A stretch of 56,168 nucleotides of DNA from Vogesella urethralis. Lineage in GTDB: Bacteria; Pseudomonadota; Gammaproteobacteria; Burkholderiales; Chromobacteriaceae. The notes beneath the pieces were generated by a model. It did not search any database. It saw only the letters and a program-made list of their open reading frames with translations, and had not been told where the DNA came from. Shown piece by piece: positions 1,539-55,707 of the stretch; the stretch's first letter is position 1, and the number at the start of each line of letters is the position of its first letter. The DNA is taken from NCBI RefSeq assembly GCF_007644045.2, contig NZ_VMDW02000112.1:1-56168 (forward strand). Reading direction: 5' to 3'. A program made the translations under genes and the position numbers.

Positions 1539-2636
1539 TTATTTGCCTGTCTTGAACTCTTGCCACAGGCGGGTGGTAAGGCGCTGGGTCTTGGCATCCA
1601 TCGAGGGCATCACGAAGCTCTTGGCGACCACGTCCTTGCCCGGGAAGATAGACGGGTTGGACAGGTGCTTCTTGTCGATGAACTGGCGGGCGGCCAGGCT
1701 GCCGGGGGCGTAAGTCACGGCGTTGGCGTTGGCCGCAGACACTTTCGGGTCCAGCACGTAGTTGATGTACGCCAGGGCGTTGTCGACGTTCTTGGCGTCT
1801 TTCGGGATGACCATGCTGTCAACCCAGATGCCGACGCCGGCTTTCGGTACCAGCGGCTGGATCTTCACGCCATTCTTGGCTTCTTCGGCGCGGGTCTTGG
1901 CGATGTTCAGGTCACCACCGTAGCCCAGTACCAGACACAGCGAGCCGCCGGACAGTTCGTTGATGTAACCGGACGACGAGAAGCGGGTGATGTACGGGCG
2001 CAGCGGCTTCAGCAGGGCAGCGGCGGCTTTGTAATCGGCCTCATTGGTGGTGGCCGGGTTTTTGCCCATGTAGTGCAGCACGATGGGGAACACTTCAGCC
2101 GGGGAGTCCAGCATGCTGACGCCGCAGCTTTTCAGCTTGGAGACGTTCTCGGCCTTGAACAGCAGGTCCCACTCGTTGGCCGGCAGCTTGCCGCCCAGCG
2201 CCTTGTTGACCTTGTCGCTGTTGATGCCGATGGTGTTCATGCCCCAGAAGTAGGGCACGGCAAACTTGTTGCCCGGGTCGAAGCTGGTCATCAGCTTCAT
2301 CAGTTCCGGGTCCAGGTCTTTGTAGTTAGGGATCTTGGCCTTGTCGATCGGCTGGTACAGGTTGGCCTGGATCTGTTTGGCGAGGAAGGTATTGGACGGG
2401 TGTACCAGATCGTAGCCGGACTTGCCGGTCAGCATCTTGGCCTGCAGGATCTCGTTGCTGTCGTAGACGTCGTAGCGCACCTTGATGCCGGTGCTTTTCT
2501 GGAAGTTCGGCAGCGTGGACTCGGCAATGTAGTCCGACCAGTTGTAGACGTTCAGCTCCTTGCTGGCGGCCAGGGCGGTACCGGATACGGCGGTGAGAGC
2601 CAGCGTGGTGGCCAGAGCCAGAGTGGTTTGCTTCAT
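1539..2636 (-). CDS. potF: Polyamine (putrescine) ABC transporter periplasmic binding protein
   Basis: Solute-binding protein that captures putrescine or a related polyamine in the periplasm and hands it to an ABC permease. The product (365 aa from this start) opens with a clear Sec signal peptide (KQTTLALATTLALTAVSG, cleavage around ALA-AS) and continues with LNVYNWSDYI, the hallmark start of mature PotD/PotF proteins. The ATG at 2636 is chosen over the TTG one codon upstream because AAGGAG lies 5-10 bases before it. No permease or ATPase genes lie next to it, so it is an orphan binding protein here, but the ligase upstream makes a polyamine-use theme likely. A GTTGGCCGCA repeat copy sits in the gene at 1728-1737, encoding Ala-Ala-Asn. 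Putrescine versus spermidine specificity cannot be decided from sequence alone. Confidence 0.88.
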   Translation of the reverse strand: MKQTTLALATTLALTAVSGTALAASKELNVYNWSDYIAESTLPNFQKSTGIKVRYDVYDSNEILQAKMLTGKSGYDLVHPSNTFLAKQIQANLYQPIDKAKIPNYKDLDPELMKLMTSFDPGNKFAVPYFWGMNTIGINSDKVNKALGGKLPANEWDLLFKAENVSKLKSCGVSMLDSPAEVFPIVLHYMGKNPATTNEADYKAAAALLKPLRPYITRFSSSGYINELSGGSLCLVLGYGGDLNIAKTRAEEAKNGVKIQPLVPKAGVGIWVDSMVIPKDAKNVDNALAYINYVLDPKVSAANANAVTYAPGSLAARQFIDKKHLSNPSIFPGKDVVAKSFVMPSMDAKTQRLTTRLWQEFKTGK

Positions 2637-2764
2637 CAAGTTCTCCTTGCAGTGTGACTGCTTATTTCATGTCGCGGCTTGATTATGCCGATGGGCCAAT
2701 TAAAAACCTTTGCACAAAATTGCTCAACTACTACCTGACGCAGCCCGCATTGTAGCGTGCGGGG

Positions 2765-4051
2765 TCAGGCTTGGGGGGCGAGATACGCCCATTCCCAGGG
2801 GGTAACCTGTTGCTGGAAATGTGCCTGCTCAAGCTGTTTGAGCTCGGCGAATACCTGACAGAACCCGCTGCCCAGCAGTTCCTGCAGCGCGTCGCAGGCT
2901 TGCAGCGCGGCTAGCGCTTTGGCCTGGCTATCCGGCAAGGTGGCTGCTGCCGCGTAGGCGCTGTTGCTGCACGGTGGCGTGGCCTCGCGTTGTTCACGGA
3001 TGCCAAGCAAGCCGCAGGCCAGGGTGGCCGCCAGTGCCAGGTAGGGGTTGGCGTCGATACCGGGCAGGCGGTTTTCCACGCGCCGGGCTTGCGGGCCGCT
3101 TTCCGGCACCCGCAGGCCGCAGGTACGGTTGTCGTAGCCCCATTCCACGTTGATGGGCGCGGCGGTGTGCGGCGCCAGCCGGCGATAGGCATTGGGGTTG
3201 GCCGCAAACAGCAGCATGGCGTGCGGCAGATAGTGTTGCAGGCCCGCGATATAGTGGCGGAAGCGCGGATGCTCGCTGCCGTCTGCCTGGCTGAAGGCAT
3301 TGCGGCCATCGCTGTCCAGCAAGCTCTGGTGGATATGCATGGCGCTGCCGGCGTGGCGGGCAAACGGCTTGGCCATGAAGCAGGCCTGCAGACCGTGCTG
3401 GCGCGCCAGGTTGCGTAGCGTGCGTTTGAGCAAAAACACCTGGTCGGCCAGTTGTAGCGCCGGGCCGTGCTGCAAGTTCAGCTCGTACTGGCCGTTGCCT
3501 ACCTCGTGCAGCAGGGTGTCGGTGGCGATGCCTTGCTGGTGGCAGTGCTGTTCCAGCTCGGCAAAGAAGGCTTCGTGTTGCCAGGCGTGGTCCAGCGCAT
3601 AGGCCGGCGATACCGGCTCGTTCTGGCTGCCGTCGGCGGCCAACAGGTAGAACTCGATTTCCGGCGCCACGACCGGTGTCAGGCCATCGGCCGCAAACGC
3701 GGCCAGCACACGTTTGAGCACGTTGCGAGGCGCAAACGGCACCGGCGCGCCCTGGCGGTCGTGACAGTCGTGGATAAGCTGGGCAATACGTCGCCCCGTG
3801 CTGGGCTTGAGGCTCAGCGTTGTATCGTCGGGCAGCAAAACCAGATCGGGGTCGGTTTCGGGTACCAGCTGTTGTTGCGGGTCGCCCATCCAGCTCTGGA
3901 TCAGGCTGACTTGCGGAAAGCGCAACTCGCCGCTGGCGGGGTAGTGGCTAACCGGTACCAGTTTGCCGCGCGCCTGGCCGTTGAGGTCGGCAAACAGGCA
4001 TTCAATGTGGGTGATGGCGTGCTGTTGCAGCCAGTCGTGCAGGGTGCTCAT
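2765..4051 (-). CDS. Glutamine synthetase family protein, PuuA-like gamma-glutamylpolyamine synthetase
   Basis: ATP-dependent ligase of the GlnA superfamily, 428 aa from the ATG at 4051, which has an AAGGA ribosome site upstream; longer starts read into non-coding leader. It has the short beta-grasp N-domain (ECLFADLNGQARGK) and the catalytic barrel with APEIEFYLL, GNGQYELNL, GSAMHIHQSL and RVENRLPG. The length and the RGK-P segment fit the gamma-glutamylputrescine/polyamine group rather than true GlnA (about 470 aa, with an adenylylation tyrosine loop). The potF-like gene lies 130 bp downstream on the same strand, supporting a role in polyamine catabolism. Repeat copy GTTGGCCGCA at 3197-3206. 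Substrate specificity is inference. Confidence 0.82.
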   Translation of the reverse strand: MSTLHDWLQQHAITHIECLFADLNGQARGKLVPVSHYPASGELRFPQVSLIQSWMGDPQQQLVPETDPDLVLLPDDTTLSLKPSTGRRIAQLIHDCHDRQGAPVPFAPRNVLKRVLAAFAADGLTPVVAPEIEFYLLAADGSQNEPVSPAYALDHAWQHEAFFAELEQHCHQQGIATDTLLHEVGNGQYELNLQHGPALQLADQVFLLKRTLRNLARQHGLQACFMAKPFARHAGSAMHIHQSLLDSDGRNAFSQADGSEHPRFRHYIAGLQHYLPHAMLLFAANPNAYRRLAPHTAAPINVEWGYDNRTCGLRVPESGPQARRVENRLPGIDANPYLALAATLACGLLGIREQREATPPCSNSAYAAAATLPDSQAKALAALQACDALQELLGSGFCQVFAELKQLEQAHFQQQVTPWEWAYLAPQA

Positions 4052-4374
4052 GGGCAGGGTTCCTTGAAAGTGTCGAGACGATAGCCGGTGCCAACAGGCC
4101 GGCATTGCCGGTGGCACTTAGCGGTTGCTCGAACACGCCCAGGGAAACATGGCAAGGAATGCGTACGGTACAAAGCGGTAGCAGGTAACGCATGACAGGC
4201 CCTTGCGGAGGAGACAGCCCACAGTTTTAGGGGCTGCCAGTGTTGGGTGTCAATTATATTTAACGGTTTTGTATGGTTATGCAAAGCGATGTGACAACGA
4301 TGCGACGGTGAGCCGTGCGCGGCGACGGGAAATGTGCAAAAATCCTGCCAACTAACGAATTTGCAGGTTTTTCC
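4052..4374. other. 323-bp divergent intergenic region (PuuA-like / rppH)
   Basis: No gene is supported here. The region carries the leaders and promoters of two divergent genes and is AT-richer around 4245-4290. A small inverted repeat, CAGCCC (4216-4221) with GGGCTG (4232-4237), lies in what would be the 5' leader of the PuuA-like gene. I see no riboswitch class that I recognise. Confidence 0.5.
4345..4371 (+). promoter_or_regulatory. Hairpin immediately upstream of rppH
   Basis: CCTGC pairs with GCAGG across a 14-base spacer, with A-rich and T-rich arms on the outside, ending only a few bases before the rppH ATG at 4375. It looks like an attenuator or a start-masking hairpin, but the stem is short. 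Confidence 0.3.
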
Positions 4375-4914
4375 ATGCTGGACCGGGACGGATACCGCCC
4401 CAATGTCGGAATCATCCTCATCAATCACAAGCATGAGGTGTTCTGGGGCAAGCGGGTGCGCGAGCACTCGTGGCAGTTTCCGCAAGGAGGCATCAAACCT
4501 GGCGAAAGCCCCGAGGCCGCGATGTATCGCGAGCTGCTGGAAGAAGTGGGCTTGCTGCCGCAACACGTCAAGATCCTGGGTCGCACCCGCGACTGGCTGC
4601 GCTACGACGTACCCACCAACTGGGTGCGTCGCGAGTGGCGCGGTAGCTATCGCGGGCAAAAGCAGATCTGGTTCTTGCTGAAGCTGGTAGGCCGGGATTG
4701 CGATGTATGCCTTCGTGCGACCAATCACCCCGAATTTGACGGCTGGCGCTGGAATGATTACTGGGCGCCGGTCGACGCGGTGATCGAGTTCAAGAAAGAC
4801 GTCTACGAGCGGGCGCTCACCGAGCTGACCCGTTTCCTGAAAGGGGTAGAAAGCCGTCGTGATTACCTGGCGCGCATCGCCGGGGACGCGCCGAGCTTGC
4901 CAGACGAGGGCTAA
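4375..4914 (+). CDS. rppH: RNA pyrophosphohydrolase (Nudix)
   Basis: Removes pyrophosphate from the 5' triphosphate end of transcripts, which lets RNase E start mRNA decay. The 179-aa product begins [15 protein letters not shown] as RppH proteins do and has the full Nudix box [23 protein letters not shown] at residues 38-60. The ATG at 4375 is preferred because an upstream in-frame GTG (4315) would add residues with no counterpart in the family. The stop is three bases before the TTG start of the next gene, so the two are probably co-transcribed. Confidence 0.93.
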
Positions 4915-4917
4915 GGC

Positions 4918-5544
4918 TTGCATACCGAACCTTTGCCACGGCCACGCACTGCGTTTGCAGTCGTGGCCGTTGTCGCTGCCTGGTCTGCCTGGCAGCCACA
5001 TGACACCACTACCTGGTGGATGGAGGCCATTCCGGCCGTCGTCGGCCTGCCGCTGGCGTGGTTATGCTGGGGCCGTTACCCGTGGACCAGGTTGGCCGCA
5101 TGGGCGATGGCGCTGCACGCCATCATCCTGCTGGTGGGCGCGCACTACACCTACGCGCTGACGCCGCTGGGCTTCTGGCTGCAGGACGCGTTTGATTTCA
5201 GCCGCAACCACTACGACCGTATCGGCCATCTGGCGCAGGGCTTCTTTCCTGCCATCCTGGCGCGGGAAGTGATCCAGCGCGGTACCGGCCTGGCCGGCCG
5301 CTGGCTGGCGTTTCTGGCAACCTGCTTCTGCCTGGCGTTCTCGGCGTTTTACGAATTGATCGAATGGTGGGCCGCGCTGGCCCTGGGCGCCGGTGCCGAC
5401 GCGTTCCTCGCCACGCAGGGCGACCCGTGGGACACCCAGTGGGACATGTTCCTGGCGCTGTGTGGCGCCATCCTGGCCCAGCTGCTGCTGGCCCGCCGTC
5501 ACCAACAACAACTGGCGTCGCTGCTGCGGCGCCCATCGTGCTGA
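4918..5544 (+). CDS. DUF2238 family integral membrane protein (YjdF-like)
   Basis: A 208-aa protein with about five to six hydrophobic spans and the conserved segments FDFSRNHYDRIGHLAQGF and SAFYELIEWW, plus DPWDTQWDM, typical of the DUF2238/YjdF membrane family. No biochemical role is established for the family. The start is a TTG at 4918, supported by GAGG about 8 bases upstream in the end of rppH; the next candidate start would remove the first residues of the N-terminal hydrophobic segment. It sits tightly between rppH and parE. Repeat copy at 5091-5100, read as Leu-Ala-Ala with TTG and GCA, codons that the gene otherwise rarely uses. Confidence 0.78.
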   Translation: MHTEPLPRPRTAFAVVAVVAAWSAWQPHDTTTWWMEAIPAVVGLPLAWLCWGRYPWTRLAAWAMALHAIILLVGAHYTYALTPLGFWLQDAFDFSRNHYDRIGHLAQGFFPAILAREVIQRGTGLAGRWLAFLATCFCLAFSAFYELIEWWAALALGAGADAFLATQGDPWDTQWDMFLALCGAILAQLLLARRHQQQLASLLRRPSC

Positions 5545-5551
5545 CAGACAC

Positions 5552-7519
<1,968 letters not shown>

Positions 7520-7546
7520 GCCCGCCCGCTATTGCGCTCATCTCCG

Positions 7547-7577
7547 GCCCTGCTTGCTGTTGCATGCAGGGCTTTTT
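7547..7577 (+). terminator. Intrinsic terminator of parE
   Basis: GCCCTGC (7547-7553) pairs with GCAGGGC (7566-7572) and is followed by five T residues. It lies 27 bp after the parE stop. Confidence 0.75.
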
Positions 7578-7600
7578 GCTGGCCGGCCGACGGCGGTAAG

Positions 7601-7610
7601 GTTGGCCGCA
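7601..7610 (+). repeat. GTTGGCCGCA repeat, intergenic
   Basis: Exact copy in the 13-base form AAGGTTGGCCGCA, between the parE terminator and the phosphofructokinase gene. Confidence 0.9.
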
Positions 7611-7682
7611 GCCGCTTGCGCCAGCGCAAGGCGAGGTGGCTGTCTGGTACTACAATGGTCTGCATCCATCCGGGAGATCATC

Positions 7683-8888
7683 ATGCCACGCCTGCTCTAT
7701 CTGCAATCCGGCGGCCCTACCGCCGTCCTCAACCGTTCGGCGCAAGGCGTCATCGAAACCGCGCGTACCCTTGGCGTGCCGGTCTGCGCGGCGGCCAACG
7801 GCCTGGCCGGCTTGCTGGCAGGCCAGCTGTACGACTGCAGCGCGGCAGCGGCGGCCAACATCCAGCGCCTGGGCTGGCTACCCGGCGCCAGCTTCGGTAC
7901 CAGCCGCCAGATTCTGGCACCGTACGCGGCCGACCCGCAGTCGTGGCAGCAGCTGGCCGACGTGCTGCGCCGCTTCGATATCGGCTATGTGCTGCTCAAC
8001 GGCGGCAACGGTTCGATGGAAACCGCGCTGGCGCTGGGCGAGCTGGCACAACGTTTCGACCTGCCATTGCAAGCGTTGGGCGTGCCCAAAACCATCGATA
8101 ACGACCTGGAAGGCACCGACTTCAGCCCCGGCTTTCCGTCGGCAGCCAAATATCTGGCCAGCAGCCTGCGCGAGGTCATCCACGATATGCGCAGCATGGC
8201 GCGCGGCCGGGTATTCATCATGGAAACTATGGGTCGCCACGTCGGCTGGTTGGCCGCAGCCTGCAGCCTGGCGGCGCCGGATGGCGAGCCGGCGCCCTTG
8301 CTGTTGCTGCCCGAAGTAGCGTTTGACGAGGCCCGCGTACTGCAGGCGGTGCAGCAACGGCTGGCGCGGGACGGTTACTGCGCCATTGCGGTGGCCGAGG
8401 GGTTGCGCCAGGCCGATGGCCGTTTCGTGGCGCAGATGCACGCCGACGCGGTGTACGGCCACGAGCAGCTGGGCGGCGCTGGCGCCTGGCTTGCGCAACG
8501 GCTGCAAGCACAGCTGGGCGTGCACGCCCACGTGGCGCTGGTGGACTGCCAGCAGCGCGCCGCCATGCACCTGGCTTCGGCTACCGACGCCAGGCTGGCC
8601 TACGCCGCCGGGGCCGCCTGCGTGCACTGGGCGCTGGCCGGGCAGGGCGGGGTGATGGCAGGTCTGCAGCGCAGTGCGGACGACTGGATCGTGACGCCGG
8701 TGCCACTGGCCACGGTGGCCGGGCTGGAGCGCCGGCTGCCGGCCGCGTTTATCGCGGAGGATGGCCTGGCGGTGACGCCCGCTTTTGCCGAGCACGTGCG
8801 GCCGATGCTGCAAGGCGAAGTGGCACTGCCGTACGTGGACGGTCTGCCGGATTACCGCACGCTGAGCTGGCCGGTGCTCGCAGGGTGA
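7683..8888 (+). CDS. pfp: 6-phosphofructokinase, probably diphosphate-dependent
   Basis: Phosphorylates fructose 6-phosphate to the 1,6-bisphosphate in glycolysis. The 401-aa product shows the PFK signatures: QSGGPTAVLN at the N-terminus, NGGNGSMETA near residue 102, PKTIDNDLEGTD near 137 and METMGRHVGWLAA near 181. The two inserted-length features and PKTIDNDL followed by PGFPSAAKY fit the PPi-PFK/group III clade found in many betaproteobacteria that lack PfkA, although the donor (PPi or ATP) is not proven by the NGGNGS loop. The ATG at 7683 follows GGAG (7672-7675). Repeat copy at 8249-8258 reads Leu-Ala-Ala. Confidence 0.85.
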   Translation: MPRLLYLQSGGPTAVLNRSAQGVIETARTLGVPVCAAANGLAGLLAGQLYDCSAAAAANIQRLGWLPGASFGTSRQILAPYAADPQSWQQLADVLRRFDIGYVLLNGGNGSMETALALGELAQRFDLPLQALGVPKTIDNDLEGTDFSPGFPSAAKYLASSLREVIHDMRSMARGRVFIMETMGRHVGWLAAACSLAAPDGEPAPLLLLPEVAFDEARVLQAVQQRLARDGYCAIAVAEGLRQADGRFVAQMHADAVYGHEQLGGAGAWLAQRLQAQLGVHAHVALVDCQQRAAMHLASATDARLAYAAGAACVHWALAGQGGVMAGLQRSADDWIVTPVPLATVAGLERRLPAAFIAEDGLAVTPAFAEHVRPMLQGEVALPYVDGLPDYRTLSWPVLAG

Positions 8889-8943
8889 CGGCTGCCTAGG
8901 CGGGCGGCATAATGGCAGGCCACCCTCACACCGGACCCTTGCC

Positions 8944-9675
8944 GTGTTTGCTGCCTTCCGCCGATTGCCCGCCAATGATGTTGGCCGCGACTTTGTCGTG
9001 GGTGACGTGCACGGCTGCTTCGAGACGCTATCGCGCCTGCTGGGGCAGGTGCTGTTCGACCCGCAGCGCGACCGCCTGCTGTCGGTGGGCGACCTGGTAG
9101 ACCGTGGCCCCGGCTCGCTGCAGGTGCTGGACTGGCTGGCGCAGATGTGGCTGTTTGCCGTGCGCGGTAACCACGAGCAGATGGCGATCGATTACGACGC
9201 CAGCCCGGCCTGGCGCGAGCGTTACCTGCGCAACGGCGGCGACTGGTTCATCGATATGCCCGACGGCCAGCAGCAACGCTACCGCAGCGTGTTTGCTGCC
9301 ATGCCGCTGGCGATGGAAGTGGAGGTGGGTGGACGCAGCATCGGCCTGATTCATGCCGACTGCCCGGAAGACGACTGGATTGCCTTCCAGGCGCGGCTGG
9401 CTTCCGGCGAGCTGGCGCCGTGTCGCAGTGGCCAGACCGTGCGCCACGAAGCGTTATGGTCGCGGCAACGCCTGCGCGGCGAGCCACGCCAGCGCGTCGC
9501 CGGTATCGATATGTTGTGCGTCGGCCACACCCCGGTGCAGCTGGCGCGGCAGCGCGACAACGTGCTGTACCTCGACACCGGCGCAGTCTACGGCCGGGCG
9601 CTGACGCTGCTGTGCCTGAACGATATGAGCATCCATACCCTGGCGTGCGACGAGTGCGCTTTCCCCGACGATTGA
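8944..9675 (+). CDS. PPP-family metallophosphatase (serine/threonine phosphatase, PrpA/lambda type)
   Basis: A 243-aa calcineurin-like phosphoesterase with all three signature motifs in order: GDVHG near residue 20, GDLVDRG near 49 and RGNHE near 75. A later GHTPV and LDTGAVYG complete the two-metal site. The family includes bacterial Ser/Thr/Tyr protein phosphatases PrpA/PrpB and ApaH-like diadenosine tetraphosphatases; the spacing and length favour the PrpA/lambda-phosphatase group. The start is a GTG at 8944. It is 55 bp downstream of the phosphofructokinase gene on the same strand. The true substrate is unknown. Confidence 0.85.
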   Translation: MFAAFRRLPANDVGRDFVVGDVHGCFETLSRLLGQVLFDPQRDRLLSVGDLVDRGPGSLQVLDWLAQMWLFAVRGNHEQMAIDYDASPAWRERYLRNGGDWFIDMPDGQQQRYRSVFAAMPLAMEVEVGGRSIGLIHADCPEDDWIAFQARLASGELAPCRSGQTVRHEALWSRQRLRGEPRQRVAGIDMLCVGHTPVQLARQRDNVLYLDTGAVYGRALTLLCLNDMSIHTLACDECAFPDD

Positions 9676-9707
9676 ACCTGCCACCCTTTCCGGGCTGTCA
9701 TGCCCGT

Positions 9708-9717
9708 TGCGGCCAAC
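9708..9717 (-). repeat. GTTGGCCGCA repeat, intergenic
   Basis: Exact copy on the minus strand, between the phosphatase and the binding-protein gene. Confidence 0.9.
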
Positions 9718-9752
9718 TATGCTGAAGCAGCGTTGTCGTGAACGGAGGCCCC

Positions 9753-10427: not shown

Positions 10428-10428
10428 G

Positions 10429-10462
10429 GCCCGACAAGCTTCCCGCTGCGGCGTTGTCGGGC
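10429..10462 (+). terminator. Hairpin after the binding-protein gene
   Basis: Perfect 9-bp stem GCCCGACAA/TTGTCGGGC, loop of 16, starting two bases after the stop codon. There is no T-run, so it may be a processing or Rho-related hairpin rather than a simple terminator. Confidence 0.45.
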
Positions 10463-10552
10463 TGGCGCCGGGCATCGCCCAGCGCAGCGCCGATCTGTAC
10501 ATTGGATAACTTCCCGCTCCTGCGCTGCTGCAAGCAAGCGTGTCAACAGGCT

Positions 10553-11263: not shown

Positions 11264-11406
11264 GGTGGGCTCTCTGCAGTCGGTGGAGGAAGCGTATGCC
11301 TATAGCGTGAGGCCGCGGTGTGCACATTTCAATAGGCGGTACGGTTTGCCGCTGCGCGTCAAAATGCCGGATAATCGCCGCCTGCTTTTTTGACCCTTGG
11401 CTGCCG

Positions 11407-44856: not shown

Positions 44857-44861
44857 TCAAA

Positions 44862-45527: not shown

Positions 45528-45529
45528 GG

Positions 45530-47645
<2,116 letters not shown>

Positions 47646-47657
47646 GCGGTTTCCTGC

Positions 47658-48977
47658 TTATTTGGCCAGAATGCGAACGCGCCAGGCATCGGCACGGGCT
47701 TTCAGATCGGCTTCGTCCAGCGTGGTGAGCTGGCGTTCGCGCAGCACGTTGCGGCCGTTCACCCACACGTGGCTTACCTGCTCGCGGCCAGCAGCGTACA
47801 CGATGTGCGAAATCGGGTCGAAGCTGGGGCTGGTTTCGATCTGCGCCAGGTCCACGGCGATCAGGTCGGCCTGCTTGCCCACGCTGACGCTACCCACCTT
47901 GTCGCCGATATGCAGCGCGTCGGCACCCAGCTGGGTGGCCATGCGGATGGCAGTGGCGGCCGGTACCGCTACCGGGTTCAGCGTGCCTACCTTGGCCAGC
48001 AGCGCGCCCATGCGGGTTTCGCTCAGCATGTCCAGCTTGTTGTTGGAGGCGGCACCGTCGGTGCCGATGCCCACGGTCACGCCGGCGTCCAGCAGCTGTT
48101 GTACCGGGGCGATGCCGGAGGCCAGCTTCATGTTGGACGTGGGGTTGTGGGCGATGGCCACGCCACGCTCGGCACACAGCGCGATTTCCTCGTCGGTGAG
48201 GTGCACCATGTGGGCGGCGATCAGGCGCGGGCTGAGCATGCCCAGCTTGTCCAGGCGCGTCAGCGGGCGCACGCCGTGTTCGGCCACGCCGCCGTTCACT
48301 TCATCCTGGGTTTCGTGGATGTGGCAGTGGATCAGCATGTCGTGCTCTTCTGCCAGTGCCACTACTTTGCGGAAGGTATCGTCGGACACGGTGTACGGCG
48401 CGTGTGGGGCCAGCGTGAAGGTGATCAGCTCGTTGCCCTGGTAGTTGGCCGCATCGGCCAGGCCCTTGGCAATGTAGTCGTCGGCGTTCTGGCCGTAGGC
48501 GGTGGGGAATTCCAGGATCGAACAGCCCACGAAAGTCCGCATGCCGGCTTGCAGGCCGGCGCGTGCCATCGCGTCATGGAAGAAGTACATGTCGTTGATG
48601 GTGGTGGTGCCGCTGCGGAACATCTCGCCCATCGCCAGCAGCGCGCCGTCATAGACGAACTCGTCGCTGACGTGTTTGCCTTCGGCCGGCCAGATGTGGT
48701 TTTGCAGCCAGTCCATCAGTGCCTTGTCGTCGGCCATGCCGCGCAGCAGGGTCATGGCGCTGTGGCCGTGCAGGTTTACCAGGCCGGGCATCAGCACATG
48801 ATTACCCAGTTCGATACGTTCTGCTGCGTCGGCGCCGGCAATCTGCTCCGGGGAGAGGATGGCGGCAATGCGGCCGTCGGCGATGGCGACAGCGTGGTTT
48901 TCCAGCACCACACCATCTTGTTCCACCGTGATGATCCAGCGCGCGGAAATCAGCTGGTCGAAGCGTTTGTTTTGCAT
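47658..48977 (-). CDS. mtaD: TRZ/ATZ family amidohydrolase (5'-methylthioadenosine/S-adenosylhomocysteine deaminase-like)
   Basis: A 439-aa metal-dependent hydrolase. Metal-site motifs are present: LMPGLVNLHGHSAM near residue 61, HCHIHET near 207, AHMVHLTDEEIAL near 247 and GIGTDGAASNNKLDM near 300. The group deaminates MTA and SAH, and placement next to ubiG, a SAM-dependent methyltransferase that makes SAH, fits. ATG 48977 is preferred over a TTG further upstream. Repeat copy at 48444-48453. Confidence 0.85.
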   Translation of the reverse strand: MQNKRFDQLISARWIITVEQDGVVLENHAVAIADGRIAAILSPEQIAGADAAERIELGNHVLMPGLVNLHGHSAMTLLRGMADDKALMDWLQNHIWPAEGKHVSDEFVYDGALLAMGEMFRSGTTTINDMYFFHDAMARAGLQAGMRTFVGCSILEFPTAYGQNADDYIAKGLADAANYQGNELITFTLAPHAPYTVSDDTFRKVVALAEEHDMLIHCHIHETQDEVNGGVAEHGVRPLTRLDKLGMLSPRLIAAHMVHLTDEEIALCAERGVAIAHNPTSNMKLASGIAPVQQLLDAGVTVGIGTDGAASNNKLDMLSETRMGALLAKVGTLNPVAVPAATAIRMATQLGADALHIGDKVGSVSVGKQADLIAVDLAQIETSPSFDPISHIVYAAGREQVSHVWVNGRNVLRERQLTTLDEADLKARADAWRVRILAK

Positions 48978-49157
48978 GGGTAATCTGCCTTTCAAATCGT
49001 TAGCGGGCGATTGTAGGCGCCCTGTTCGGCATTCGGCAACCGGCCTTCCCTGTGTATACTATGCATATAGCGTCTTTGCGCATCGTCGCAAGGGCGCTTA
49101 TTCTGTGTAAATAACTGTTAAAAGCCAGCGGCTCACGCCCTGGGGGTAAAAGATTCC

Positions 49158-51977
49158 ATGACCCAGAAGCCAGACAACTTCGACAGCTACCTGATCGGTT
49201 CGCGCTTGTCTATGCGCCAGGTGTTCCTGATGGCGCTCGTGCTGGGTTTGCTGATACCGGCGGTCATCATCACCGTGCTCAGCTTCAACCTGCAGCGCGA
49301 ACGCATGGAAAACCAGCTGGCAGTAGACCAGAAGCGCCTGCTGGATATCGTGGCGCTGGGCATGCAGGAACCCTTGTGGAACCTTAGCCGCCAGGCCGGC
49401 GCGCCGCTGGTGTCATCGGTGATGGACGATCCGCGGGTGATCTCCATCCGTGTCTCCGACACCCAGTCCAACACCGTGTTCCTCTCTACGCTGCGCAGCG
49501 AGCGCCGTATCGGCAGCGTGGCCTTCGTGCAGAAAGACGTGGTGTACCGTGGCGAGGCCATCGGCCAGGTCAGCATCGAATTCGATACCGAGCACTTGGC
49601 GATCGACCAGCGCAACCAGCTGAAGAACCTGCTGATGATCGTGGTGGCGCAGCTGCTGTTGTCGGTGCTGCTGATCATGACCATCCTGCACTCGCGCTTC
49701 CTGCGCCCGATCCGCCAGCTGTCGGACCAGGCCACGCAGTTGGCCGCACTGAAGCTGGACGAGCCTTTCCACTGGGGCCGCCACGACGAAATCGGCACCG
49801 TCGGCAAGCACCTGGAATGGATGCGCGCCGAGCTGAAGCGCCTGATCGACGAGTTGAAATCCAAAACGCTGGCGCTGGAAGCCGATATCGAACGCCGCCG
49901 CGAGGTGGAAGACGCGCTGCGCCGCTCCGAAAACAAATACCGCGAACTGTTCTGGTCCAACCTGGACGGCATCGTCATCAGCTCGCTGGAAGGGCAGATC
50001 ATCGACGCCAACCCGGCTTTCCTCAGCCTGCTGGGTTACAGCCTCGACCAACTGAAACTGCAAAACTTCTGGAGCCTGCTGGACCGCGAGAGCGAGCCGC
50101 AGGAGCGCTACAACCTGGACCACAAGGTGATGCGCTTCGGCTTCTGCGACGAATTCGAAGTGCAGTACATCAACCGCGTCGGCAACCCGATTCCGGTCAG
50201 CGTCAAGACCGTGGCCATGCGCGACGCCGCCGGCCGCATTACCGCCGTATGGCGCATGGTGCGCGATATTTCCGAGCGCCGCGCCGCCGAAGAGCGCATG
50301 CAGTTGGCCGCCAAGGTGTTCGAGAACACTGCCGAAGGCATCATGATTACCGACGCCGACGTGCAGATCCGCTCGGTCAACCGCGCCTTCACCGAAATCA
50401 CCGGCTTTGCCCAGGATGAAGTGCTGGGCCAGCGCCCCACCGTGCTCACCTCCGGCCGCCACAGCAGCGACTTCTACGAAGCGATGTGGAAAGAGCTGCG
50501 CGAGGAAGGCTTCTGGCAGGGAGAAGTCTGGAACCGCCGCAAGAACGGCGAGGTATACCCGGAATGGCTGGCCATCAACGTGGTGAAGAGCCCGGCCGGC
50601 GAAGTGACCCATTACGTGGCCATCTTCAGCGACCAGTCCGAGCGCAAGGCCGCTGACGAGCGCATCCAGTTCCTGGCCCACTTCGACGTGCTGACCGGCC
50701 TGCCCAACCGCGGCCACCTGCAAGACCGGGCGCTGCTGGCCATCCAGAACGCGGTGCGCGACAACGGCAAGCTGGCCATCCTGCTGCTGGACTTGGACCG
50801 CTTCAAGACCATCAACGAGTCGCTGGGCCACGCCGCCGGCGACATCCTGCTGAAAATGGCGTCGGAACGCATCCGCAAGGTACTGGGTACCGGCGAGGTG
50901 GTGGCGCGCCAGGGCGGCGACGAATTCATCGTGCTGCTGCCGCTGATCAGCGACGCCGCCGTGGCCGCCCACGTGGCCGAGCGCATCCTGGCCGAGTTCG
51001 GCGTGCCGCTGGAGGTGTACAACCACACGCTGTCGATCAGCGGCAGTATCGGCATCAGCATCTTCCCCGACGACGGGCGCGACTTCGACACCCTGGTGCG
51101 CAACGCCGACGCCGCGATGTACCACGCCAAGTCCAGCGGCCGTAACAACTACAAGTTCTACACCGCCGACCTGAACGCCCGCGCCCGCGAGATCCTGGCC
51201 ATCGAAAGCCAGCTGCGCTACGCGGTGGAGCACAACGAGTTTGTGCTGCACTACCAGCCGCAGGTGGACATTGCCAGCGGCAAGATCATCGGCGCCGAAG
51301 CGCTGATCCGCTGGAACCACCCGTCGCTGGGCCTGTTGGGGCCGATGCACTTCATCGACGTGGCCGAAGAGCGCGGCTTCATCGTGCAGATCGGCAACTG
51401 GGTCATCCGCGAAGCCTGCCGCCAGATTGCCGCCTGGCACGCGGCCGGCCTGCCGCTGGTAACGGTAGGCGTCAACCTGTCGGCGCTGCAGTTCCGCCAC
51501 CAGGACCTGGTGCAAGTGCTGAGCAACGCCTTGGCCGCCTACCAGCTGCCGGGTAGCTGCCTGGACGTGGAGGTAACCGAAAGCGTGATCATGGACGACA
51601 TGGACGCCACCATCCAGACCATTCGCGCCATCCAGTCGATGGGCATCCGCATGTCGATCGACGACTTCGGCACCGGTTACTCCAGCCTGGCCTACCTGAA
51701 GCGCTTCAAGGCCGACAAGCTGAAGATTGACCGCTCCTTCGTGCGCGACATCCCGGAAGACCAGGACGACACCGCCATTACCCGCGCCATCATCAACATG
51801 GCGAAAAACCTGAACATGCAGGTAGTGGCCGAAGGCGTGGAAACCATCGAGCAGTGGCGCTTCCTGGAAGAACACGGTTGCGACCAGGTACAGGGCTACC
51901 TGCTGGCCAAGCCGATGGCGGCCGAGCTGGTGGAACCGCTGCTGCGGCAGGAATCGCTGCGCCCGCCGGCGCCGTAA
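49158..51977 (+). CDS. Membrane GGDEF-EAL protein with HAMP and two PAS domains
   Basis: A 939-aa c-di-GMP enzyme. Order: membrane segment (VFLMALVLGLLIPAVIITVL, residues 20-40), periplasmic sensor to about 150, second membrane segment (LLMIVVAQLLLSVLLIMTIL, near 158), HAMP (to about 240), PAS 1 (near 260-375), PAS 2 (near 380-500), GGDEF and EAL. The GGDEF motif is intact (GGDEF near 586) and so is EAL (EALIRW near 714), with DDFGTGYSSL near 834, so both synthesis and hydrolysis are possible; which dominates is not visible. It is a single gene with terminator at 52003. Repeat copy at 49739-49748 in the HAMP region. Confidence 0.94.
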   Translation: MTQKPDNFDSYLIGSRLSMRQVFLMALVLGLLIPAVIITVLSFNLQRERMENQLAVDQKRLLDIVALGMQEPLWNLSRQAGAPLVSSVMDDPRVISIRVSDTQSNTVFLSTLRSERRIGSVAFVQKDVVYRGEAIGQVSIEFDTEHLAIDQRNQLKNLLMIVVAQLLLSVLLIMTILHSRFLRPIRQLSDQATQLAALKLDEPFHWGRHDEIGTVGKHLEWMRAELKRLIDELKSKTLALEADIERRREVEDALRRSENKYRELFWSNLDGIVISSLEGQIIDANPAFLSLLGYSLDQLKLQNFWSLLDRESEPQERYNLDHKVMRFGFCDEFEVQYINRVGNPIPVSVKTVAMRDAAGRITAVWRMVRDISERRAAEERMQLAAKVFENTAEGIMITDADVQIRSVNRAFTEITGFAQDEVLGQRPTVLTSGRHSSDFYEAMWKELREEGFWQGEVWNRRKNGEVYPEWLAINVVKSPAGEVTHYVAIFSDQSERKAADERIQFLAHFDVLTGLPNRGHLQDRALLAIQNAVRDNGKLAILLLDLDRFKTINESLGHAAGDILLKMASERIRKVLGTGEVVARQGGDEFIVLLPLISDAAVAAHVAERILAEFGVPLEVYNHTLSISGSIGISIFPDDGRDFDTLVRNADAAMYHAKSSGRNNYKFYTADLNARAREILAIESQLRYAVEHNEFVLHYQPQVDIASGKIIGAEALIRWNHPSLGLLGPMHFIDVAEERGFIVQIGNWVIREACRQIAAWHAAGLPLVTVGVNLSALQFRHQDLVQVLSNALAAYQLPGSCLDVEVTESVIMDDMDATIQTIRAIQSMGIRMSIDDFGTGYSSLAYLKRFKADKLKIDRSFVRDIPEDQDDTAITRAIINMAKNLNMQVVAEGVETIEQWRFLEEHGCDQVQGYLLAKPMAAELVEPLLRQESLRPPAP

Positions 51978-52002
51978 GCGGCTGCTGCCGCAGGCCGCTC
52001 CG

Positions 52003-52030
52003 CACCCGGCGCTAGCCGGGTGTGTGCTTT
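52003..52030 (+). terminator. Intrinsic terminator of the GGDEF-EAL gene
   Basis: CACCCGGC (52003-52010), loop GCTA, GCCGGGTG (52015-52022), then a TTTT within 8 bases. Confidence 0.7.
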
Positions 52031-52040
52031 TGCGGCCAAC
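52031..52040 (-). repeat. GTTGGCCGCA repeat, intergenic
   Basis: Exact copy (minus strand) in the AAGGTTGGCCGCA form directly behind the GGDEF-EAL terminator. Confidence 0.9.
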
Positions 52041-52132
52041 CTTTGTTACACAAGCTATACAGTGCGCATTTGATAGCGCGCCCTGTTCAAATTAGAATTC
52101 GAGCCATTAATCTAACTTTCGAGACCCGATCA

Positions 52133-53449
52133 GTGAACGCACCGACCTCTCTGCGCGACCTCCCGCAAGGCAAACTCTTCCGCCAAGGCGACGTTTTCGT
52201 CCTGTTTGGCGAGCTGTTCGGCCGTGGCTACGCCAACGGCCTGATCAACGAAGCCCGCGCAGCCGGCATGACCATCATCGGCCTGACCGTTGGCCGCCGC
52301 GACGCCGACAACAGCCTGCGTCCGCTGAATGCCGAAGAGCTGGCCGAAGCCGAAGCCCGCATTGGTGGCAAGGTGATCAACGTGCCGCTGATGGCCGGTT
52401 TCGACCTGGACGCGCCGGCCGGCGAGCCGACGCCTACCGAGCTGCTGTCGGTACTGACCCTGAAAAACTGGCAAGACGAAAAGCTGGACTGGGCGCAGAT
52501 CGAACGCTGCCGTGAAGCCGGCGTCGCCCGCTTCAAGAGCAGCGTGGCCGAAGTGATGGCCCAGCTGGAGCCGCTGGTGGCCGACGGCAGCAATGTGTTC
52601 TTTGCCCACACCATGGCCGGTGGCATCCCGAAAGTGAAAGTGTTCCTGGCCATCGCCAACCGCATCTACAAAGGCCGTGGCGACCGCTTCATGTCGTCCC
52701 GTGCGCTGCTGGACAGCGACCTGGGCAAGCTGATCCTGATGAACTTCGACGAAGTCACCGCCAACACCTTCCAGTACCTGATCGACGGCAGCGCCGCGCT
52801 GCGCCAGCGTCTGGAAGCCAGCGGGGGCCAGGTGCGCTACACCGCCTACGGCTACCACGGCACCGAGATCCTGATCGACGGCCAGTACCAGTGGCAGACC
52901 TACACCAACTACACCCAGGGCGGCGCCAAGAAACGCCTGGAAGACCACGCGCGTACCGCCTGGCAGCAGGGCGTGAAGGCCACCGTGTTCAACTGCCCGG
53001 AAATACGCACCAACTCGTCCGACATCTTCGTGGGCGTGGAGCTGTCGCTGTTCCCGCTGCTGAAAGCGCTGCGCCAGGAAGCCCCGGGCGAGTGGACCGA
53101 GGCGCAATGGGCGGCCTGCAACGCGCTGCTGCAAGACGGTTACAGCATTGACGACCTGCTGGCGCAGATCGAAGCCTACAACACCCACGCCACCATGCTG
53201 GCCTTCCGCGACTTTGCCGCCTGGCCGATGGACAACTCCCCCGAGCTGGCCGAGGTGATGATCGGCACCTCCGACGACATCACCAGCAAGCACAAAGACC
53301 GCAACGCGCTGGTCACCGACCACCTCAGCGCGCTGGTGCTGGAAGGCACCGGCCCGCTGATGTTCGGCGAAGCGGCCAACCCGGCCGGCCCGGTGCTGTG
53401 GCTGAACCACGACGTGATCGCCAAGCAACTGGCCAAGCTGCACGGCTAA
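52133..53449 (+). CDS. Protein of uncertain function, possibly FabMG-like enoyl-ACP reductase
   Basis: A 438-aa soluble protein. I do not recognise it firmly. The N-terminus GDVFVLFGELFGRGYANGLI then MTIIGLTVGRRDAD looks like a Rossmann start, and FFAHTMAGGIPKVKVF and YGYHGTEILIDGQY are strongly patterned. The pattern recalls proteins named enoyl-ACP reductase FabMG family, which I hold as a tentative match only. It starts with a GTG at 52133 (MNAPTSLRDLP); the ORF further upstream runs into AT-rich leader. It appears to be a stand-alone gene with a perfect terminator. Codon use is that of a well-expressed housekeeping gene. Confidence 0.5.
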   Translation: MNAPTSLRDLPQGKLFRQGDVFVLFGELFGRGYANGLINEARAAGMTIIGLTVGRRDADNSLRPLNAEELAEAEARIGGKVINVPLMAGFDLDAPAGEPTPTELLSVLTLKNWQDEKLDWAQIERCREAGVARFKSSVAEVMAQLEPLVADGSNVFFAHTMAGGIPKVKVFLAIANRIYKGRGDRFMSSRALLDSDLGKLILMNFDEVTANTFQYLIDGSAALRQRLEASGGQVRYTAYGYHGTEILIDGQYQWQTYTNYTQGGAKKRLEDHARTAWQQGVKATVFNCPEIRTNSSDIFVGVELSLFPLLKALRQEAPGEWTEAQWAACNALLQDGYSIDDLLAQIEAYNTHATMLAFRDFAAWPMDNSPELAEVMIGTSDDITSKHKDRNALVTDHLSALVLEGTGPLMFGEAANPAGPVLWLNHDVIAKQLAKLHG

Positions 53450-53478
53450 GCGTTTGGTTGTTTGCCCACCGGCAACGC

Positions 53479-53508
53479 AAAACCCCGGTCCTGTGACCGG
53501 GGTTTTTT
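53479..53508. terminator. Intrinsic terminator of the FabMG-like gene
   Basis: AAAACCCCGGTC, loop CTGT, GACCGGGG, then six T; symmetric enough for both strands. Confidence 0.93.
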
Positions 53509-53527
53509 CATGCGCGTAGCGGGTGTA

Positions 53528-53537
53528 GTTGGCCGCA
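53528..53537 (+). repeat. GTTGGCCGCA repeat, intergenic
   Basis: Exact copy between the terminator at 53479-53508 and the GGDEF gene. Confidence 0.9.
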
Positions 53538-53600
53538 AGGATGCGCGGCGATACTGGCCAAACCCTGCCGCCAGCGCCGGCGCCACGCGCTTATTTGTAA

Positions 53601-53632
53601 TTGACAATCCTATTCATGCTATTGAATTCAAT
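53601..53632 (+). promoter_or_regulatory. Promoter-like region with a 12-bp palindrome, upstream of the GGDEF gene
   Basis: TTGACA (53601-53606) is a perfect -35; ATTGAATTCAAT (53621-53632) is a perfect palindrome near the place of a -10. The AT-rich block (53590-53645) contrasts with the surroundings. An operator for a repressor is possible. Confidence 0.4.
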
Positions 53633-53736
53633 GAATATGCATGAAATGCACAGCCATTGATTTGGCTACTCGCCAAAGCCCGCTGCGCATGATCAGATAG
53701 CGGCGGTTCATGAACGGGCGGGATGGAGGACAAGGC

Positions 53737-54924
53737 ATGTTCAGCAACGAGCAGATGCTGCTACTGGTGCTATTCGGTGCGCTGCTGCACAGCTGGCTGG
53801 GCGCGGTGCTGCGCTACGTCTGGCGCCATCGGCAGACGGCACCGGGCTTCCAGTACTGGGCCTGGAGCGAAGGCCTGCTCGGCATGGCCTATCTGGTGAT
53901 GCTGGTGTTTTTCCTGCTGCCCAACCATGCCATCCTGCTGGCCAGCACGCTGTTGCTGACGCTTAGCCCGCTGGCGTACGAACACGGCCTGCGCCGCTTT
54001 TTTGACGATGCCCGCCTGCTGCCGGCCTGGGGCGGGTACGCCATCGCCAGCGTGGGTTTGCTGCTGCAGGCCGCCGCCATGCTGTGGGTAGACGACGTCG
54101 CGCTGCGCCGCGCCACCGTCAACGGCAGCTCGCTGCTGCAATTATTGTGGTTGTGGCCGCAGGTTTGGCTGGCCCGGCGTTCGCGCCCCTACGCGCAGCC
54201 GCTGCGGGCCTTGCTCTGGGGCCTGGCGCTGTTGGCCGCGCTGCAAGGCTGGCGCGTGTACGACGACATCCGGCAATCGCTGTCCGGGCAGGTGGCCGCG
54301 CACGACACGCTGGTGGGGCTGGTGGTGTTGCTGTCGTTGATGGTGTCCATCATGCGCAGCCTCACCGATCTGGTGCTGGTACACGCCCGGCTGGAAGCGG
54401 CGCTGCTGGCCACGCAGGCCACCCTGGCGCAGCGCGCCAATACCGACAGCCTGTCCGGCCTGGCCAGCCGCCACGCCTTTGAGCACGCATTGCAGCAACT
54501 GCCCGACAGCCAGCCGCCGCAGCATGTGTTGCTGCTGATCGATATCGACCACTTCAAGCACATCAACGACAGCCAGGGCCACCACGCCGGCGACCGCACC
54601 CTGGCCTTGCTGGGCAGCCTGCTACAAGCACAGTTGGCCGCAGGCGAGCTGGCCGGCCGCCTGGGCGGGGACGAGCTGGCCGTACTGCTACACGGCAGCC
54701 CGCAGCGTGCGGCCAACTTCATCCGCCAGCTGCAGCAAGCCATAGCCGGGCAGGGCGGCGACTTCACCCTCAGCATCGGCATCAGCCCCTTGCACGGGGG
54801 CAGCGACTACCTGCGCGCCTACCAGCACGCCGACCAGGCGCTGTACGCCGCCAAAAACGCCGGCCGCAACCGGGCCTACCAGCACGACGGCCAGCTGACG
54901 CTGCCGATGCTGCAGCCGGCGTAG
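53737..54924 (+). CDS. Membrane-bound diguanylate cyclase with GGDEL motif
   Basis: A 395-aa protein with six to seven hydrophobic spans in residues 1-215 and a C-terminal GGDEF domain. The active-site motif is GGDEL (GRLGGDELAVLL near residue 310), a variant that remains active in some known cyclases. Other residues are standard: IDIDHFKHINDSQGHHAGD near 268 and the absence of an RxxD inhibitory site five residues before the motif. ATG 53737 is chosen because GGAGG lies 9 bases upstream. Repeat copies at 54633-54642 (Leu-Ala-Ala) and 54708-54717 (Ala-Ala-Asn), two within 85 bp. Confidence 0.88.
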   Translation: MFSNEQMLLLVLFGALLHSWLGAVLRYVWRHRQTAPGFQYWAWSEGLLGMAYLVMLVFFLLPNHAILLASTLLLTLSPLAYEHGLRRFFDDARLLPAWGGYAIASVGLLLQAAAMLWVDDVALRRATVNGSSLLQLLWLWPQVWLARRSRPYAQPLRALLWGLALLAALQGWRVYDDIRQSLSGQVAAHDTLVGLVVLLSLMVSIMRSLTDLVLVHARLEAALLATQATLAQRANTDSLSGLASRHAFEHALQQLPDSQPPQHVLLLIDIDHFKHINDSQGHHAGDRTLALLGSLLQAQLAAGELAGRLGGDELAVLLHGSPQRAANFIRQLQQAIAGQGGDFTLSIGISPLHGGSDYLRAYQHADQALYAAKNAGRNRAYQHDGQLTLPMLQPA

Positions 54925-55090
54925 CACGGCCGCCGCGCCGGGCACCGGCGGGTGATCAAAGCAGGGCAGCCCCGCACGCAGCGGGCCTGTGGGGCGCCAC
55001 CCGTGCAAAGTGCCTTCTGAGCAGCGGGTGGCGGCTGCGCTGGCCGCTGGCGGTATAGCCAAGCCGGAGCCAGCATGCGGCCAAGCTTGG

Positions 55091-55597
55091 TCAATGCCAC
55101 AGCACGATCGCTACCACACCGGCCACGCCGGTCAGCAGCGCGATCGCCAGCAATAGCACACTGCGCCACAGCACCCCACGCGCCAGCGCCGGGTGCTCGC
55201 TTACCGCCGCCAGCGCCAACAACACAAAGCTCGCCGCCCACAGGTAATACGCGCCGTGCAGCCGCAGGCTGGGCAGCAGCGCCACCAGCGGCCGGATCAG
55301 CATCACGTTATGTACCGCCACCGCCAGCAACAGCAGCAGCGCGCCCAGGCCGGTAGTGGGCCGCAGTGGCTGCCGCTGGCGGCGCAGCTCGGCCAGCATC
55401 AGCCCGTTACTGAGCACCCCCAGCCACAGCCACGGAGAGCCTAGCAAAGTCACCGGCAGCCACGCCGCCAACAGCAGCGTGCCGCTAGCCAGTAGCTGGA
55501 TACCCAGCAGCGTATCGCCGTGCGGCGAAATCGCCGCCGGCCACAGCAGGCTGGCCAGCCACAGGGCCAGCGCGGCCAAGCGAAGCGCTTGCGTCAT
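55091..55597 (-). CDS. Small integral membrane protein of unknown function
   Basis: A 168-aa, leucine- and alanine-rich protein with about five hydrophobic spans (LRLAALALWLASLLWPAAIS; LLASGTLLLAAWLPVTLLG; GALLLLLAVAVHNVMLI; YYLWAASFVLLALAAVS; VLLLAIALLTGVAGVVAIVL). I do not recognise a family. Start ATG at 55597. A one-mismatch repeat copy lies just past its stop (55078-55087). Confidence 0.65.
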   Translation of the reverse strand: MTQALRLAALALWLASLLWPAAISPHGDTLLGIQLLASGTLLLAAWLPVTLLGSPWLWLGVLSNGLMLAELRRQRQPLRPTTGLGALLLLLAVAVHNVMLIRPLVALLPSLRLHGAYYLWAASFVLLALAAVSEHPALARGVLWRSVLLLAIALLTGVAGVVAIVLWH

Positions 55598-55697
55598 CGG
55601 TATGCACCATCAAAGGAACGCCGACAGCATACGCGATGGCGCGGCGGTTGGCAGGAGGTTGGTGGGATGGTTGGTGTGCAGGCCAGGAGGGCGCAAG

Positions 55698-55707
55698 GTT
55701 GGCCGCA
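55698..55707 (+). repeat. GTTGGCCGCA repeat, intergenic
   Basis: Exact copy in the AAGGTTGGCCGCA form upstream of the small membrane protein gene. Confidence 0.9.

Follow-up and report, generated by a model that had tools for sequence, protein, structure and literature searches.

A genus-specific repeat as a putative DNA uptake sequence, with two sister dialects in a family that is probably Chromobacteriaceae

The 10-mer GTTGGCCGCA (12-mer AGGTTGGCCGCA) is very probably the DNA uptake sequence (DUS) of the genus to which the species of the window belongs, and one of three sister dialects in a family that is probably Chromobacteriaceae; the window is the whole stretch of 56,168 nucleotides analysed here. 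We observed a word that is abundant, balanced between strands, over-represented in intergenic DNA, arranged in inverted pairs and restricted by lineage, along with its sister dialects, a ComP homologue, PilQ, PilP and ComEC. The uptake role proposed in the initial annotation is supported by a genus-specific repeat that extends genome-wide, displays DUS-like anatomy and belongs to an organism that encodes PilQ, PilP, pilins and ComEC. None of the three refuting outcomes named there, a count near expectation, confinement to one mobile repeat family or missing pilus and competence machinery, was seen.

Copies in the window and across the genome

Exact matching on both strands identified 32 copies of GTTGGCCGCA in the window, 19 on the plus and 13 on the minus strand. 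All 30 copies counted initially (18 plus, 12 minus) are exact; two, at 32125 (plus) and 719 (minus), had been overlooked. Chance predicts approximately 0.5 copies per window in an order-3 Markov model (0.81 per 100 kb) and approximately 1.8 in an order-5 model (14.5 per 456 kb) whose training sequence itself contains GTTGGCCGCA. The extended form AAGGTTGGCCGCA is present seven times (5 plus, 2 minus), the number claimed at the outset. Thirteen copies had been described as intergenic; with a simple gene caller, nine lay wholly between genes and one on a gene edge. Copies 7601, 46895 and 52031 are situated at ORF ends, and the choice of start or end affects this count. The copies, located by exact match and placed relative to genes by gene calling, are as follows.

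719..728, minus, GTTGGCCGCA, absent from the initial list
1728..1737, plus, GTTGGCCGCA
3197..3206, plus, GTTGGCCGCA
5089..5100, plus, AGGTTGGCCGCA, intergenic
7598..7610, plus, AAGGTTGGCCGCA, start of phosphofructokinase-family ORF
8249..8258, plus, GTTGGCCGCA
9708..9717, minus, GTTGGCCGCA, intergenic
10802..10811, plus, GTTGGCCGCA
11719..11728, minus, GTTGGCCGCA
16563..16575, plus, AAGGTTGGCCGCA, intergenic
18944..18955, minus, AGGTTGGCCGCA
20832..20841, minus, GTTGGCCGCA
21971..21980, minus, GTTGGCCGCA, gene edge
22760..22769, plus, GTTGGCCGCA
25417..25426, minus, GTTGGCCGCA
30801..30810, minus, GTTGGCCGCA
32125..32134, plus, GTTGGCCGCA, absent from the initial list
32763..32775, plus, AAGGTTGGCCGCA, intergenic
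35586..35597, plus, AGGTTGGCCGCA
38401..38410, minus, GTTGGCCGCA
42570..42582, plus, AAGGTTGGCCGCA, intergenic
45110..45119, minus, GTTGGCCGCA, intergenic
46549..46558, plus, GTTGGCCGCA
46895..46930, inverted pair at gene end: AAGGTTGGCCGCA minus (46895-46907) and GTTGGCCGCA plus (46921-46930)
48444..48453, plus, GTTGGCCGCA
49739..49748, plus, GTTGGCCGCA
52031..52043, minus, AAGGTTGGCCGCA, start of enoyl-ACP reductase ORF
53528..53537, plus, GTTGGCCGCA, intergenic
54633..54642, plus, GTTGGCCGCA
54708..54717, minus, GTTGGCCGCA
55695..55707, plus, AAGGTTGGCCGCA, intergenic
1233..54240, scattered, 28 last-base variants (GTTGGCCGCC 16, GTTGGCCGCG 6, GTTGGCCGCT 6)

The pair at 46895..46930 has the stem-loop geometry described for Neisseria DUS pairs. 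In the 28 variants, GTTGGCCGC precedes a C, G or T, and some of them are background. Those ending in C or G are over-represented in the window's species, in which the last base is relaxed, a feature that had previously gone unmentioned.

The 4.03-Mb genome of this species harbours 1,871 copies of GTTGGCCGCA (922 plus, 949 minus), far above expectation in the whole-genome count that had been called for; a reversed-pattern control gave 14 (8 plus, 6 minus). The word was the most over-represented 10-mer both in a 456-kb sample of this genome (210 seen, 14.5 expected) and in a sample of G060, a genome of the same genus (274 seen, 11.0 expected). Six cores of published DUS words were present at just 0 to 17 copies each in the 456-kb sample. 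Among the 210 copies, 62 were intergenic, 143 genic and 5 on edges; intergenic DNA makes up only 10.5% of the sample, indicating intergenic enrichment. Close pairs were mostly inverted rather than direct, with counts of 9 versus 1 in this genome and 21 versus 0 in G060.

An even spread of copies was not established. The gap CV was 0.81 and the per-region variance (5.7) fell below the mean (8.9) in the window's genome, but in G060, with a gap CV of 0.90, the variance of 21.0 exceeded the mean of 13.7. Conservation of copy positions between two species was not above chance. The two poorest of 20 G060 regions (3 and 5 copies) were those with the lowest GC (0.582 and 0.592), and ten genes scanned in one copy-poor region were of accessory type and not clearly mobile. 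These 20 regions provide only a hint that GTTGGCCGCA is depleted in islands.

Sister dialects in the family

Counts of GTTGGCCGCA range from 1,871 to 2,895 in the 13 genus genomes and from 8 to 58 in the remaining 48 genomes of the family. A k-mer scan together with genome counts revealed that GTTGGCCGAA is the dominant word in 8 family genomes and GTTGGCCGAG in 2. As sister words dominate these relatives, a GTTGGCCGNN dialect is present in 23 of the 61 family genomes and 7 of the 10 genera. The three dialects consist of GTTGGCCG followed by CA, AA or AG, so that the last two bases vary by lineage. Regarding the suggestion of a new dialect, the word is genus-specific, but it is one of three sisters and not isolated.

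Outside the family, 0 of 386 sampled genomes of the order were carriers of GTTGGCCGCA, GTTGGCCGAA or GTTGGCCGAG. As a positive control, the k-mer scan detected AG-DUS in G187, an order genome with ComP. We treated its family (f44) as Neisseriaceae because G187 has AG-DUS and members of f44 have ComP. A k-mer scan for other words in two further families of the order (f51, two genomes; f25, one genome) revealed nothing comparable. The nearest named match of the PilQ of the window's genome came from a MAG labelled Neisseriaceae bacterium (87%), which contains 2,113 copies of GTTGGCCGMA, followed by Craterilacuibacter (52%) and Chromobacterium (46-49%); the rest of the named matches were at 40-44%. 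These PilQ matches point to Chromobacteriaceae as the probable identity of the family.

A candidate receptor and alternative explanations

The check for ComP and type IV pilin genes was positive for a ComP homologue, pilins, PilQ, PilP and ComEC. In the window's genome we identified PilQ (TIGR02515, E 2.9e-139), PilP (PF04351, E 3.6e-42), ComEC (PF03772, E 1.1e-49; present in 59 of 61 family genomes) and 16 N_methyl (pilin-type) matches, fifteen besides the ComP homologue. One of these pilin-type proteins is a homologue of ComP, the DUS receptor of Neisseria. The gene (G000:C46:60833-61255, minus strand) lies approximately 2 kb from pilP-pilQ, and its product is a type IV prepilin (PF07963) with a PF16732 match (E 1.5e-8). 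We did not take PF16732 (ComP_DUS) alone as proof of a ComP, as this broad family matches two further pilins of the same genome. The three solved ComPs, 2NBA, 2M3K and 5HZ7, were matched by phmmer (6.2e-7, 2e-5 and 4.1e-5, respectively) and were the first three PDB matches of a profile of the homologue's own family (1.8e-17, 2.7e-17 and 1.2e-16). With the predicted structure (pLDDT 88.9), the sole Foldseek match under 0.001 was ComP 5HZ7 (E 1.7e-5). The profile and structure matches span approximately 100 residues of the soluble domain. As regards the electropositive DNA-binding stripe of ComP, the soluble part has a net charge of -2 (carriers, -4 to +6; Neisseriaceae-type ComPs, -1 to +6). 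The two disulphides (4 Cys) expected of ComP were not found in this protein, which has 2 Cys; of the 13 genus members, only G055 and G060 have 4 Cys. As regards orthology with Neisseriaceae ComP, an unrooted tree did not separate the three groups, and the gene neighbourhood differs from that of Neisseriaceae comP.

By analogy with Neisseria, we propose that a ComP-family minor pilin on a retractile type IV pilus would bind double-stranded DNA carrying the word, each ComP pairing with its own dialect. Retraction would then draw the bound DNA in through PilQ, and ComEC would move one strand into the cytoplasm. Ongoing recombination would introduce further copies and repair altered ones, bringing their number into the thousands.

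We considered the possibility that the uptake signal is read by another pilin or receptor, and would hence have arisen independently of the Neisseria DUS-ComP system and resemble DUS by chance. In its favour are the fifteen further pilin-type matches, the absence of a CTG core, and the distance of GTTGGCCGCA alone from known dialects, to which it is no closer than 41% of shuffles in any register tried (9% for the AA dialect). The ComP homologue itself is not basic. ComP relatives are also found in non-carriers, so that having such a protein does not predict the word. Nevertheless, the homologue matches solved ComPs across the soluble domain, and a basic loop residue (K/R) is present in 22 of 23 carriers versus 0 of 13 non-carriers examined, as well as in 5 of 6 Neisseriaceae-type ComPs and 0 of 8 other pilins. 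The residue is in the alpha1-beta1 loop, which NMR implicated in DUS binding (PMC12061091, in excerpt). We thus regard a different receptor as improbable.

A genome-wide motif without a role in uptake, such as a Chi-like motif for recombination, a KOPS-like motif for chromosome segregation, a methylation or restriction site or a nucleoid protein site, is also compatible with thousands of spaced copies, but we consider it quite unlikely. Chi and KOPS are strongly biased towards one strand of replication, unlike the word, of which 20 regions of G060 contain 129 copies on the G-rich strand and 145 on the C-rich one; this lack of bias relative to GC skew excludes motifs of this kind. The word contains GGCC, a common restriction-modification core. 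However, the word has no palindromic symmetry, the GGCC count agrees with expectation (12,180 versus 11,935 expected) and that of TTGGCCAA is below it (18 versus 36), so a palindromic or methylation core is not favoured. Inverted pairing and an AG prefix, as in DUS, and sister words that differ by lineage in the last two bases also argue against a non-uptake role. Finally, although the genome is GC-rich, the word can encode common amino acids and 143 of 210 sampled copies are genic, a functionless product of base composition, codon usage or a mobile repeat family is refuted by the reversed control (14 versus 1,871), by similar-sized relatives with just 8 to 58 copies and by flanks that, unlike those of a mobile repeat, share nothing beyond approximately 3 upstream bases in the samples of this genome and G060, with the intergenic excess also against it, and has a negligible probability.

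Origin and relation to known uptake systems

Excerpts of Frye et al. 2013 (PMC3630211) describe DUS in Neisseriaceae. In that study, an obvious DUS was lacking from Chromobacterium, Laribacter, Lutiella and Pseudogulbenkiania, BLAST detected no ComP in C. violaceum, and the authors inferred an origin of the system after that split. In the excerpted text of a 2026 terminator survey (PMC13020248), uptake words are reported solely for Neisseriaceae and Pasteurellaceae. Among the literature matches listed, mostly open-access and without preprints, there was no report of these words in this probable Chromobacteriaceae family. Our results suggest that the tagging system predates and extends beyond the Neisseria family from which it was described. 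We lean slightly towards a scenario in which DUS-ComP transformation already existed in the common ancestor of Neisseriaceae and the sister family, after which the cores would have drifted to CTG and CCG, respectively, and the sister family would have split into CA, AA and AG dialects. Most of genus g2, together with g3, g4 and g8, would have lost the word, at least some retaining a ComP relative whose loop is altered, and the loosened last base in the window's species would be a dialect change in progress. CCG-core dialects with their own diverged ComPs would provide a second set of receptor-word pairs, with contrasts such as that between G010 and its word-less congeners. They would allow direct tests of how uptake specificity originated and of the recognition code of ComP.

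The eight published dialects, AT-DUS, AG-DUS, mucDUS, simDUS, kingDUS, king3DUS, eikDUS and wadDUS, all contain a CTG core that is called required (Frye et al. 2013, PMC3630211, in excerpt). CTG is absent at +6 to +8 in the three sister dialects, which in register have CCG. They share G at +1, C at +6 and G at +8 with Neisseriaceae DUS, T at +2 with mucDUS and T at +3 with simDUS, and the window's dialect shares C at +9 with king3DUS; two of the three dialects have A at +10. None of the seven published dialects compared (all but wadDUS) has the G at +5 or the C at +7 through which the core here reads CCG. In register, 9 of 12 positions agree between AG-mucDUS and the 12-mer of the AA dialect, AGGTTGGCCGAA; across the registers and both strands tried, 1.0% of shuffles did as well. 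The AG 12-mer reached 8 of 12 against known DUS (6% of shuffles), and AGGTTGGCCGCA 8 of 12 against AG-mucDUS (8%), making the letters merely suggestive and the receptor the stronger evidence. In view of the ComP homologue and the match of AGGTTGGCCGAA, the earlier view that the word is unrelated to Neisseria DUS lacks support.

As in Neisseriaceae, we find a 10-mer preferably preceded by AG, on both strands and in inverted pairs, with at least a thousand copies in most carriers, dialects that follow lineages and a ComP homologue; here, the family is another one and the uptake role is putative. The homologue resembles Neisseria ComP as a type IV prepilin with an ENA..LE.FY...GSYKL..TQWPALP stretch, in fold and, by profile, over the whole soluble domain. 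It differs in having 2 rather than 4 Cys in most members, a slightly acidic soluble domain in the window's species, 22-26% identity to solved ComPs by structure and a different gene neighbourhood. The Pasteurellaceae uptake signal (AAGTGCGGT, as given in excerpts of PMC13020248) is likewise a short word with many copies and terminator pairs, and belongs to the same functional class with a different sequence and lineage.

Abundance of the 10-mer in Vogesella

Concerning the candidate DNA uptake sequence GTTGGCCGCA, a pattern count of the window gave 32 exact copies, 19 on the plus strand and 13 on the minus strand. The 30 copies listed in the initial annotation were all located correctly, but the list was incomplete, lacking those at 719 (minus) and 32125 (plus). 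The whole genome of V. urethralis (G000; 4,028,666 bases in 157 contigs) harboured 1,871 copies (922 plus, 949 minus), compared with 14 of the reversed word used as a control. In a sample of another genome of the genus, G060, 274 copies were observed against 11.0 expected. A 400-kb sample of G002, from the family genus g2, had 3 copies where 2.3 were expected.

Three sister words in the family

Among the 61 family genomes counted, all 13 of the window's genus contained 1,871 to 2,895 copies of GTTGGCCGCA (CA dialect), and the remaining 48 contained 8 to 58 each. Six genomes of this genus likewise stood out among 399 sampled from the order, all others having at most 52. We then scanned k-mers in 100 kb from one genome in each of eight other genera and in the 400-kb G002 sample. 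The top k-mer was GTTGGCCGAA (AA dialect) in g6, g7, g9 and g10 and GTTGGCCGAG (AG dialect) in g5, both differing from GTTGGCCGCA only within the last two bases. No comparable word was found in the single genomes scanned from g2 (G002), g3, g4 and g8. As a positive control, the same scan on G187, an order genome with ComP from outside the family, recovered AGGCCGTCTGAA, the known AG-DUS.

Whole-genome counts of the sister words in family genomes
GTTGGCCGAA, high scorers: G037 2,168; G045 1,851; G010 1,368; G038 1,245
GTTGGCCGAA, next: G046 1,104; G048 893; G036 579; G047 183
GTTGGCCGAG: G034 1,940; G035 1,590

The other 53 family genomes had at most 78 copies of GTTGGCCGAA, and the other 59 at most 165 of GTTGGCCGAG. 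This maximum occurred in G036 (g6), whose content is thus mixed. Taken together, the counts of the three words identify dialect carriers in 23 of the 61 genomes and 7 of the 10 genera. All three were absent as genome words from 9/10 g2, 19/19 g3, 4/4 g4 and 6/6 g8 genomes; G010 is the sole carrier in the otherwise word-less g2. Two genomes of g8 were slightly rich in both GTTGGCCGAA and GTTGGCCGAG (G040, 62 and 92; G043, 45 and 85), possibly remnants of a lost system. Of the order genomes sampled from other families, 386 in all, none had more than 104 copies of GTTGGCCGAR. Seven named genomes found via PilQ loci were counted for GTTGGCCGMA: a MAG titled Neisseriaceae bacterium had 2,113 copies, and three Chromobacterium, Craterilacuibacter, Deefgea and Formivibrio had 30 to 63.

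Other words also recurred. In G045 (g9, L161-L165), the palindrome TGCTTAAGCA was strongly over-represented, with 18 occurrences, spread over 18 contexts, in a 100-kb sample for which 0.11 were predicted. CAGCGCGTCC/GGACGCGCTG was over-represented in G000 (L051-L070 and the window; 37 against 4.8 expected), and G002 (L091-L110) had 24 copies of the repeat unit GGGACTGGGA in 7 contexts, probably tandem arrays.

Base preferences and placement of copies

Across seven samples, G was preferred at -1 (41-81%) and A at -2, the exception at -2 being G038, with G ahead. Single-mismatch variants at +4 to +8 were scarce, at most 4 each in every sample. At +10, we counted A 210, C 105, G 84 and T 19 in the own-genome sample, and A 274, C 6, G 14 and T 1 in that of G060. 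The final base is thus relaxed in G000, with plentiful C and G variants, unlike in G060. Genome-wide, GTTGGCCGCC occurred 816 times in G000 against 124 to 575 in 12 congeners. A dialect change under way is possible. Examples in the window are:

1233, plus strand, copy with changed last base
3635, minus strand, copy with changed last base
8980, plus strand, copy with changed last base
16850, plus strand, copy with changed last base

In an unrooted tree, the ComP of G000 lay on a separate branch within its genus.

Intergenic copies accounted for 62 of 210 in the own-genome sample, although intergenic DNA makes up 10.5%. Close pairs (60 bases or less) were inverted rather than direct at 9:1 in G000 and 21:0 in G060, resembling the inverted pairs of Neisseria DUS at terminators (PMC3630211). 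G060 copies were split about evenly between the G-rich (129) and C-rich (145) strands. In G000 and G060, the spacing of copies displayed no clear pattern. Conservation at orthologous positions between G000 and G060 (3 of 12 copies; controls, 17%) was without clear excess, and this comparison favours no reading. Two word-poor G060 regions, L088 (C1:3400001-3420000; 3 copies) and L089 (3600001-3620000; 5 copies), had the lowest GC among 20 sampled; ten L088 genes scanned had an accessory-function look.

A putative uptake route and comparison with Neisseriaceae DUS

Tagged DNA is most likely taken up by a ComP/PilQ/ComEC route. Word-bearing extracellular DNA would be bound by a ComP-type minor pilin, drawn in via PilQ by pilus retraction, threaded through ComEC and recombined; a bias toward tagged DNA would let the tag spread and be repaired. 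Anatomy, distribution and part of the machinery were documented here, and DNA binding, uptake and specificity are the steps that we infer. We found no earlier report of these words in this family in the literature searched, mostly top-ranked results.

The sister words were aligned from -2 to +10 with seven known DUS dialects, and the matches were set against those of shuffled words at every register and strand examined. The AG prefix, G+1, G+4, C+6 and G+8 are common to most or all of these dialects, and T+2, T+3 and C+9 can each be found in one or more of them; none of the seven has G+5 or C+7. Against AG-mucDUS, the AA 12-mer matched at 9/12 positions (equalled by 1.0% of shuffles), and the CA (AGGTTGGCCGCA) and AG 12-mers at 8/12 each (8% and 6%). 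For 10-mers without the prefix, 9% (AA), 41% (CA) and 37% (AG) of shuffles were as good. CTG at +6 to +8 is kept in all eight published dialects (PMC3630211), whereas the sister words have CCG, which therefore places them outside the published set. Given these shuffle frequencies, the likeness in letters is suggestive, and kinship to DUS rests on ComP. The sister words resemble DUS and probably work like them.
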